Source: Candidatus Altimarinota bacterium
GTDB lineage: Bacteria; Patescibacteriota; Gracilibacteria; BD1-5; UBA2023
Length of the DNA: 64,000 nucleotides
Assembly (NCBI GenBank): GCA_028685185.1
Contig: JAQUEK010000001.1
Coordinates: 1-64,000, forward strand
Direction of reading: 5' to 3'
Numbering within the stretch: the first letter of the stretch is position 1; every line of letters starts with the position of its first letter. The notes under the pieces were generated by a model that was given only the letters and a program-made list of their open reading frames with translations, had not been told where the DNA came from and ran no database searches. The position numbers and the translations under genes were made by a program. Below, piece after piece: positions 61,656-64,000 of the stretch.

Positions 61656-62819
61656 TTATAATCCGACAACTTCTTTTACTTGTTTCATCTTCTCATCTAT
61701 CCTTTCATTCATGATCATAGCTCATTCTGCCAATTTCTGTTCGATCAGTCCATAATCCTTAGACAATTCTTCCCTTCTTGATCTGAAAGCTCATATATAA
61801 TCATTCATGATTTCAAAAAGTTCAGTTTTCGCATTTCAATATCAATATCATCCGGAAAGATATTTCTTCCTTATATCCTCAACTCTTTTCAGATCTCAAA
61901 ATTGCTTTATCAATGCGAATACATTGCAGGTTTCCGGATCTTTCGGCTCATCGACTCATTTTGAATCGGTGGTGATCGACATGATTTTTTTCTTCAATGA
62001 TTTCTCATCTTCAAAAACTCATATGAAGTTATTGTATGATTTGCTCATCTTTCTTCCATCAAGGCCAGAAATCATAGCAACATCCTTTTCTATATGTTCT
62101 TTCGGAATCTTGAAGATATCACATTTATAAGTCTTATTGAAAGCTTTTGCAATATCACGAGTCATCTCAAGATGCTGTTTTTGATCTTCTCAAACTGGAA
62201 CTAAGTCAATGTCATAAGCTAGAATATCAGCTGCCATTAGGATTGGGTAGTTGAAGACTCACATGTTCATTCTATTTTCAAAATTTTCAACAATTTCTTT
62301 AAGTGCAATCAATGCATTTTTATCTTTTTCTTCTGCTTCTTTTATTAAGTTAGCTAAAAGTAAAGAAAATTCAGGCATAGACTTTTGTTTATCTAAAATA
62401 TTTTTAAATCTATTGTATGCATCGTTTACTCACTTGTTAAAATAGATATCGTTTAACATTTTTTCTTTCTTCTGCTGAAAATCCTTAAAACTATGTGCCC
62501 TCAACATCAAAGAATAAGGAGTCACATTATTTAAAACCCAGTTGAGTTTTGGGATAAGTACGATATCTGATTGTTTAAAAATCTTAACTGGCGTATCAAG
62601 TCAGAAAATCGTATAGTAAGTGAGTGCGAGATTTCTGGTGTTTTCTTGAAGGATTTTTCCATCCTTTATGGAAGTGAGCGCATGCATGTCAGCTATGAAA
62701 AGGCTTGCATCGACATCGTTTTGCTCTGATAATCTCTTAAATGGAAGAATGGCTCATGTGAGATTCCCTATATGCGGCATCTCTCAAGTAGGCTTTACTC
62801 ATGTTATTATTTTTTTCAT
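61656..62819 (-). CDS. trpS: Tryptophanyl-tRNA synthetase
   Basis: 387 residues. Class I signature: TGVKPTGEMPHIGNLTGAILPFKRL has the H-I-G-N motif, with several Gly encoded TGA. The second signature, GLDGRKMSKSYNNF (K-M-S-K-S), lies near residue 253. [34 protein letters not shown] matches the adenylate-binding core. The charged insert (NKWVNDAYNRFKNILDKQKSMPEF) is longer than in typical TrpRS. It charges tRNA-Trp. Its leader carries a candidate Trp attenuator (62945-63118). In a TGA-recoded organism Trp is encoded only by TGG. Confidence 0.95.
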
Positions 62820-62944
62820 CGGTTTTTAGGTTATTTGTAAGATTATATTTAATTTTTTAAAATCTATATATTTTTTTAAATTTTGCATGTGGCGCCAATA
62901 TCTGAAATAGAAAGAGTTCATATGTTTGTGTTTTTAAAGATTAA

Positions 62945-62975
62945 AAAGACTGTCATCTTCACGATGACAGTCTTT
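62945..62975 (-). terminator. Attenuator terminator of trpS
   Basis: Minus strand: AAAGACTGTCATC GTGAA GATGACAGTCTTT, followed by TT. It lies between the leader peptide and trpS, so it can only act as a conditional terminator of that gene. Confidence 0.87.
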
Positions 62976-63016
62976 ATTTGTATTCATTATATGCTTTAAC
63001 GGAATCAATAAAAACT
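62969..63016 (-). promoter_or_regulatory. Candidate antiterminator of trpS
   Basis: Minus strand AGTTTTTATT (63007-63016) can pair with AATAAAGACT (62969-62978) over 10 bases with one G-U pair. The second arm includes seven bases of the terminator 5' stem, so the two structures exclude each other. The first arm begins two bases after the leader stop codon, where a terminating ribosome would cover it. Confidence 0.55.
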
Positions 63017-63017
63017 C

Positions 63018-63065
63018 TTATCGAGAAGAGGATATTATCTTTGTCCACCAAAGTCTTTTGTTCAT
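63018..63065 (-). CDS. trpS leader peptide
   Basis: 15 codons, MNKRLWWTKIISSSR then TAA, with two adjacent TGG codons. Position and content fit an attenuation leader: it begins just after the promoter and is followed by the terminator and then trpS. No clear Shine-Dalgarno site is visible. Under low charged tRNA-Trp, a stalled ribosome would leave the antiterminator arm free. Too short to be certain by itself. Confidence 0.6.
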   Translation of the reverse strand: MNKRLWWTKIISSSR

Positions 63066-63090
63066 ATGAATGTTTTAATTAACTGATGAC

Positions 63091-63118
63091 AGTATATCAG
63101 AAATTGGATTTGTGTCAA
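63091..63118 (-). promoter_or_regulatory. Promoter of the trpS leader
   Basis: TTGACA (63113-63118), 16-base spacer, TATACT (63091-63096) on the minus strand. Expected start is near 63084, giving a leader of about 265 bases before the trpS ATG. Confidence 0.75.
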
Positions 63119-63213
63119 AAAAATTTAGAAATGACTTAAATATTTTGACAAAGCGTAATATTTCCATATAAACATGTTAATATTTTATCCGTTTTTTAAA
63201 GATTTTGGAAAAT

Positions 63214-63549
63214 ATGTTTCTAGACAAACAAGCACAGTACTGATGAGAATATCAGGATATTTTTGGTTTGGATCTTTTCAGTTCAAAACCATCAGAATGA
63301 GATTATCTAGCTATGTTTTCTTGAGATAAAGTTAGTCTTGAATATGAATACAGAATCAGATGAGAAATTGACAGGATTCTTGAAAAGGTTTCGAATAAGC
63401 AATTTTTGGAAACAAGGGAACTTCAGATATATTCGTTGCACACAACCATAGAGATGCTATCGTCCGATCAAGAACCTCAAAAGATAAAATATAAGTCACT
63501 GATAAGAGAGATTCTGGATTTCAGATGAATCGAATGAAATTTGGATTAG
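63214..63549 (+). CDS. Small unknown protein
   Basis: 111 residues from MFLDKQAQYGGEYQDIFGLDLFSSKPSEGDYLAMFSGDKVSLEYEYRIRGEIDRILEK to TAG, with several TGA-Gly. The second half is helical (VSNKQFLETRELQIYSLHTTIEMLSSDQEPQKIKYKSLIREILDFRGIEG). Divergent to the trpS leader. No family recognised. Confidence 0.6.
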
Positions 63550-63704
63550 ATCCATAAGATCGGTTCAAAGAACTTATCTGGTTTCTCAATGAAAATCAAA
63601 ATAAAACCTGTACCCCAGCTATTGCCGCCTGTAGGCAGAGAAAAATCTCTGCTGAGTTTATCAACCGCCCTTATATGGGTCAAATATACGATAGGAGGAA
63701 TACC

Positions 63705-64000
63705 ATGCCAAACCAGAAAGATCAGCATGCTGGAAAAAAGATATCAGTAAAGGACCTGCTCAAAGGTACCGGGCTTTTTGACAAAAACGGATACATAGAT
63801 TTTATGTACGTCGCCAGCTTTCCCTGTAAAACAAACGGACAGATGGTCTATCTGAAAAGAGAGCTTAAGAAATGGATTACCGAAGTATTGAAATCTGGCG
63901 CCATAATCGAAGAAAATGTTCCATTTGAAAAAGAAGCAAACGGCGTAAAAGCCATCTTCAATTTCAGGATCAAGGGCGGGATGAAGGATGGAGTCTGGAA
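63705..64000 (+). CDS. Standard-code-type small protein, cut by the window edge
   Basis: Begins MPNQKDQHAGKKISVKDLLKGTGLFDKNGYIDFMYVASFPC after a perfect AGGAGG site 7 bases upstream, and runs off the window with no stop. Ten Gly are visible in the part shown, all GGN; none is TGA, unlike the gene directly upstream. It continues VYLKRELKKWITEVLKSGAIIEENVPFEKEANGVKAIFNFRIKGGMKDGVW. No family recognised. The preceding spacer has a hairpin (GCAGAGA/TCTCTGC). Looks foreign, or the contig joins two sources here. Confidence 0.6.
   Translation, partial: MPNQKDQHAGKKISVKDLLKGTGLFDKNGYIDFMYVASFPCKTNGQMVYLKRELKKWITEVLKSGAIIEENVPFEKEANGVKAIFNFRIKGGMKDGVW

Follow-up and report, generated by a model that had tools for sequence, protein, structure and literature searches.

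The tryptophanyl-tRNA synthetase gene, trpS, is found on the minus strand near one end of the window, that is, the whole 64,000-nucleotide stretch of DNA that was analyzed. Its predicted product scores 243 bits against TIGR00233, whose cut-off is 177. An earlier note had placed a Trp attenuator upstream, with trpS as the next gene. The features of the locus are as follows.

61656 to 62819, minus strand: trpS, tryptophanyl-tRNA synthetase, 387 amino acids in code 25 (TIGR00233, PF00579)
62945 to 62975, minus strand: intrinsic terminator with a 13-bp stem, AAAGACTGTCATC/GATGACAGTCTTT, a 5-nucleotide loop and a T-run (terminator scan and a separate terminator search)
62969 to 62978, minus strand: antiterminator 3' arm, AATAAAGACT, seven bases of which are common to the terminator 5' arm (folding)
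63007 to 63016, minus strand: antiterminator 5' arm, AGTTTTTATT, whose first base is one after the leader stop codon (pairing and folding)
63015 to 63030, minus strand: small 1:2-type hairpin, CTCTT (63030-63026) with AAGAG (63019-63015), spanning the stop codon (lowest-energy fold of the nascent leader)
63018 to 63065, minus strand: leader peptide ORF, MNKRLWWTKIISSSR, 15 codons plus TAA (translation table 25)
63045 to 63050, minus strand: TGG TGG, adjacent Trp codons 6 and 7, the putative sensor (sequence)
63091 to 63118, minus strand: promoter, TTGACA (63118-63113), a 16-nucleotide spacer and a TG-extended TATACT (63096-63091) (promoter scan)
63205 to 63549, plus strand: divergent ORF of 114 amino acids, with seven TGA codons read as glycine (ORF list)

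The promoter agrees with the consensus at 11 of 12 bases and is the top site of the region in the promoter scan, although promoter-like sites are not enriched in the region as a whole (five against 4.2 expected). Transcription is predicted to start near 63084, which leaves 19 untranslated nucleotides before the leader ATG, and no clear Shine-Dalgarno sequence was found at this ATG. The leader ORF reads ATG AAC AAA AGA CTT TGG TGG ACA AAG ATA ATA TCC TCT TCT CGA TAA, with the stop codon at 63020-63018 on the minus strand. Besides the Trp pair, the peptide contains Ile-Ile and Ser-Ser-Ser runs. The parts that an attenuator requires, namely a promoter, a leader ORF with repeated Trp codons and trpS as the next gene, are all present. 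A further ORF of 31 codons, MNSFYFRYWRHMQNLKKYIDFKKLNIILQIT, occupies 62826-62921 (minus strand) in the interval between the terminator and trpS and ends 6 bases before the trpS start; it may be due to chance or to coupling.

The two antiterminator arms, AGTTTTTATT and AATAAAGACT, form 10 pairs, one of them G-U, and are 28 bases apart. The terminator reads AAAGACTGTCATC GTGAA GATGACAGTCTTT TT and lies 42 bases beyond the end of the leader ORF. The terminator scan lists two terminator-like sites (one palindrome, counted once per strand), where shuffles give an expectation of 0.1. Because the sequence AAAGACT (62975-62969) is common to both structures, antiterminator and terminator exclude each other. 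On a leader free of ribosomes, the small hairpin across the stop codon can sequester the antiterminator arm, with only partial protection in the ensemble. The promoter, the 15-codon peptide with TGG TGG and the stop codon directly before the arm were all confirmed from the sequence and the promoter scan, and the earlier note is correct base for base in its coordinates and in the 10 pairs of the antiterminator and 13 of the terminator.

Folding of the leader under alternative constraints, as the earlier note had proposed, reveals a switch that depends on ribosome position. The nascent RNA was folded up to the end of the terminator 5' arm with a ribosome masking varied positions. When the A-site is at Trp codons 6-7, the first eight bases of the terminator arm pair with upstream sequence at a mean probability of about 0.88, and with the ribosome at the leader stop codon this pairing falls to about 0.02. 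For A-sites from codon 2 to about codons 11-12, the most favorable structure is the 10-pair antiterminator (about -10.7 kcal/mol), whose pairing collapses for A-sites at codons 14-15. A ribosome mask of 12 or 15 bases gives a similar switch, displaced by one codon. Without a ribosome, the minimum-energy fold (-15.5 kcal/mol) hides the antiterminator arm in the upstream hairpin, but in the ensemble the states are mixed (P 0.64). This might suggest, in the fold model, a ribosome-free default state that favors termination. Folds of the complete leader contain the terminator in every case; the antiterminator, rich in A and U, is the thermodynamically weaker of the two. The antiterminator must therefore win kinetically, by forming first, as the antiterminator of the E. 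coli trp leader likewise has to do.

These arrangements are rarely produced by chance. Considering both strands of the 64-kb window, from which alone this base rate is derived, there are 1,317 ORFs of 8-40 codons that start with ATG, and adjacent Trp codons occur in one of them, which is the trpS leader; when ATG, GTG and TTG starts are allowed, it is again the only case (1 of 2,757 short ORFs). Trp accounts for 88 of 16,494 residues (0.53%) in ORFs of at least 250 amino acids, and a Trp pair is expected in one given 15-codon peptide with a probability of about 4e-4. We also made 3,000 dinucleotide shuffles of the sequence that separates the Trp codons from the terminator. The pattern of arm pairing (at least 11 nucleotides paired when stalled, none at the stop codon) recurs in 0.4% of them, and all criteria together, energies included, are satisfied by none of the 3,000.

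We consider the leader element to be real, well formed and very probably functional, and assign a probability of about 0.78 to the reading in which it is a ribosome-mediated transcription attenuator that controls trpS. In the proposed mechanism, transcription would begin near 63084 and a ribosome would translate MNKRLWWTKIISSSR. When charged tRNA-Trp is plentiful, the ribosome would proceed to the UAA, and its footprint would lie over the antiterminator arm just behind the stop codon. With this arm covered, the 13-bp terminator would form, and transcription would end before trpS. When charged tRNA-Trp is scarce, the ribosome would stall at UGG UGG, which would allow the antiterminator arm to pair with the 5' half of the terminator, so that RNA polymerase could enter trpS and the level of TrpRS would rise. 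The Trp attenuator proposed by the earlier note is thus well supported by anatomy, folding states and chance estimates. Weighing against this reading are the failure to find such an element before trpS in the relatives scanned, the lack of a clear Shine-Dalgarno sequence before the leader and the thermodynamic weakness of the antiterminator.

An alternative is that the hairpin is an ordinary terminator that shields trpS from upstream transcription, that trpS has its own promoter and that the Trp-Trp ORF is coincidental. A TATAAT is indeed found about 30 nucleotides before trpS, in an AT-rich stretch and with a poor -35 element, and this counts against the attenuator. It sits at a place similar to that of the -10-like boxes found 25-37 nucleotides before the trpS start in the closest genus, g11, and in other relatives of the family. 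Also, terminators before trpS in family f2 sit right behind the stop codon of the upstream gene. However, the window has no minus-strand gene just upstream that would need to be terminated. The neighbors beyond the promoter (63205-63549, which has no family match, and 63675-64000) are both on the plus strand of the ORF list and run divergently, and so the hairpin is not the terminator of another operon. Moreover, the best promoter is upstream of the hairpin, and the scan lists no minus-strand site between the hairpin and trpS. Coincidence is further disfavored by the rarity of Trp pairs in short ORFs and of a ribosome-dependent fold switch in shuffled sequences. We regard this alternative as unlikely, and the TATAAT could be a second, unattenuated promoter.

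Perhaps the attenuator senses general translation or starvation of another kind, for example by its Ser or Ile codons or by the absence of a ribosome, instead of Trp specifically. Any ribosome position between codon 2 and about codon 12 leaves the antiterminator able to form in the fold model, the Ile and Ser runs are available as sensors, and the ribosome-free ensemble is the mixed one noted above. However, no rare amino acid apart from Trp is repeated in the peptide, Trp being as scarce in this organism as the residue count indicates, and the gene controlled is trpS. Sensing of something other than Trp is accordingly quite improbable.

T-box-like leaders are found elsewhere in the same genome. 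The T-box motif GGTGGNACC occurs at three sites, which are a leader upstream of glyS, a leader upstream of ileS and one apparent tRNA-Cys gene. The two leaders are as follows.

L233, about 797-945 (contig C5), plus strand: T-box-like leader upstream of glyS, antiterminator with bulge TGGAACC, and terminator
L223, about 1000-1148 (contig C4), reverse strand: T-box-like leader upstream of a small ORF and ileS, TGGTACC bulge and terminator

The bulge of the glyS leader fits the TCCA end of tRNA-Gly, and that of the ileS leader fits the ACCA of tRNA-Ile. The ileS leader also carries ATC in the loop of an upstream hairpin (CCTG ATATCA CAGG). The glyS leader scores 25 bits against the Rfam T-box model, so far below its gathering score of 93 that standard annotation would miss it. 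This leader is conserved across the order that uses UGA as glycine: 10 glyS-linked loci, including that of the window's genome, pass an automatic check (the relatives are L334, L336-L340, L346, L347 and L352), and in further glyS-linked loci of the same listing the leader is visible by eye. Paired changes occur in both helices (ACTTGGG/CCCAAGA and ATTTGGG/CCCGAAA; GTCC/GGAC, GTTCT/AGAAC and GCCGG/CCGGT). Where a short upstream hairpin was detected, its loop contains GGA or GGC, never UGA. Because glyS and ileS have such leaders, control of synthetases by tRNA charging is in character for this genome. That a T-box, or another RNA that binds tRNA or Trp, controls trpS as well is nevertheless exceedingly improbable, because a search of the trpS region against Rfam up to E = 10 gave no match, including to the Trp leader (RF00513) and the T-box (RF00230), and none of the three GGTGGNACC sites is at trpS.

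The attenuator would operate in an organism that is probably a Trp auxotroph, because trpB was not found in the genome by a search that was positive in 14 of 14 control genomes; the cell probably imports Trp. Homologues of trpS were found in 96 of 99 relatives. The TrpRS of the window species and of some family members has about 65 extra residues, at about positions 119-180, that most relatives in the order lack, and matches to relatives split into residues 1-118 and 183-387.

The claim that TGA encodes glycine in this organism is supported. The trpS gene contains 15 in-frame TGA codons, of which nine (positions 7, 12, 22, 187, 210, 324, 326, 328 and 366) align with columns in which Gly is present in at least 20 of 23 standard-code TrpRS sequences. 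A tRNA with anticodon UCA is found at L385 2046-2124 (C6:31911-31986). ARAGORN labels it as SeC, but it has a Gly-type acceptor stem and its discriminator base is U (U73), as in the tRNA-Gly(UCC) of this genome, so it is most likely a tRNA-Gly that reads UGA. The anticodon stem of tRNA-Trp(CCA) has the normal 5 bp, as expected in stop-to-glycine organisms (PMC13092985). The further argument of the earlier note, that recoding makes the sensor codon unambiguous, is empty and adds nothing, because the standard code, too, has UGG as its sole Trp codon. Wobble of the UCA anticodon onto UGG might even make the sensor codon less clear-cut. In a more speculative proposal, which we consider unlikely, an independently evolved, lineage-specific trpS attenuator guards the boundary between Trp and Gly in the code, because UGG shares its codon box with tRNA-Gly(UCA). 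Under low Trp-tRNA, a ribosome would either stall at UGG or misread it as Gly, and TrpRS would be raised before such misreading starts.

Counterparts of the trpS leader were sought in relatives. No second case of a Trp-Trp leader with a terminator upstream of trpS was found in the family, order or class (111 loci parsed and four more), nor among 83 loci from other CPR bacteria (of 90; in seven, left out, the start could not be located). The conserved Trp-Trp leaders that the earlier note suggested looking for in relatives were thus not found, whether in the roughly 110 loci from the class or in the 83 from other CPR bacteria, and neither conservation nor covariation of leader and hairpins was found there. 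A terminator kept where the leader is lost, which the earlier note had named as evidence against attenuation, was not seen either; the whole element is absent elsewhere. A search of the relatives' trpS loci against Rfam gave no matches. A contig scan for close TrpRS relatives returned one locus from the Gracilibacteria and no sequence from the same genus. The organism is alone in its genus among the genomes compared. In the closest genus, g11, TrpRS is 61-66% identical over its full length, and trpS is mostly preceded either by a nearby gene or by a -10-like box no more than 40 bases from the start codon. The terminators before trpS in family f2 were rejected as counterparts, being ordinary ones directly behind the upstream gene. 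Judged by the sequences compared, the putative attenuator is specific to this lineage, and either a recent gain or fast turnover would account for it. The case for attenuation is one of anatomy.

A leader of a different sort is present in one genome of the same family (G012, L127). About 250-100 bases upstream of trpS, this genome has a promoter (TTGCAA-17-TATAAT) and a leader ORF, MIKVYFIKTLSSGYLSLRKEFGW, that ends in Gly-Trp-stop and spans a long hairpin. It was rejected as a second attenuator because it has a single Trp codon and no T-run directly after the hairpin. The G012 sequence GGGTGGTA was likewise rejected as a T-box: ACC is missing, and the tRNA-Trp end GCCA, which is seen in the window's genome, would need UGGC. 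The G012 leader is possibly another kind of Trp leader.

If the proposed attenuator operates at trpS, a reduced CPR bacterium that probably cannot synthesize Trp couples translation to transcription closely enough for a classical attenuator, and the gene that this attenuator serves encodes a synthetase and is not part of a biosynthetic operon. An uncultured, recoded lineage would also then sense tRNA charging at several synthetase genes, by the attenuator at trpS and by T-box-like leaders at glyS and ileS. In a library of open-licence papers, none was found on attenuation or T-boxes in CPR, Patescibacteria or Gracilibacteria.

In E. coli, the trpL leader has a peptide ORF some 15 codons long in which Trp codons are adjacent, and the stop codon of this ORF is next to the second segment; the antiterminator and terminator of trpL are mutually exclusive. 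The present leader shares with this enterobacterial trp attenuator (trpL, RF00513) the length of the peptide, the adjacent Trp codons, the position of the stop codon and the exclusive structures. In contrast to E. coli trpL, it would control a synthetase gene and not biosynthesis, is AU-rich and without a match to RF00513, and resides in a recoded host without detectable trpB. We class the element with ribosome-mediated attenuators in general and not with the family of trp operon leaders. The pheST attenuator senses Phe, and in Firmicutes trpS is under the control of T-boxes, which bind tRNA directly and have no leader peptide. With pheST, other synthetase attenuators and T-boxes, the present leader shares the principle that low charging raises the synthetase; it differs from pheST in the amino acid sensed and from T-boxes in the absence of the T-box motif at trpS. 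The nearest precedent found for the gene controlled is in Streptomyces, where candidate attenuators of trpS were predicted by sequence analysis and likewise consist of a ribosome-type attenuator and leader peptide before a TrpRS gene (PMC1262725). In contrast to the present case, the host of Streptomyces trpS2 is an actinobacterium of high GC content that attenuates its trp operon as well, and the likeness implies no claim of homology between the leaders. The attenuator of the auxiliary TrpRS gene of S. coelicolor was reportedly verified later by experiment. The type of switch is already known; this case stands out by its organism, by the gene it precedes and by the T-box-like leaders that accompany it in the genome.
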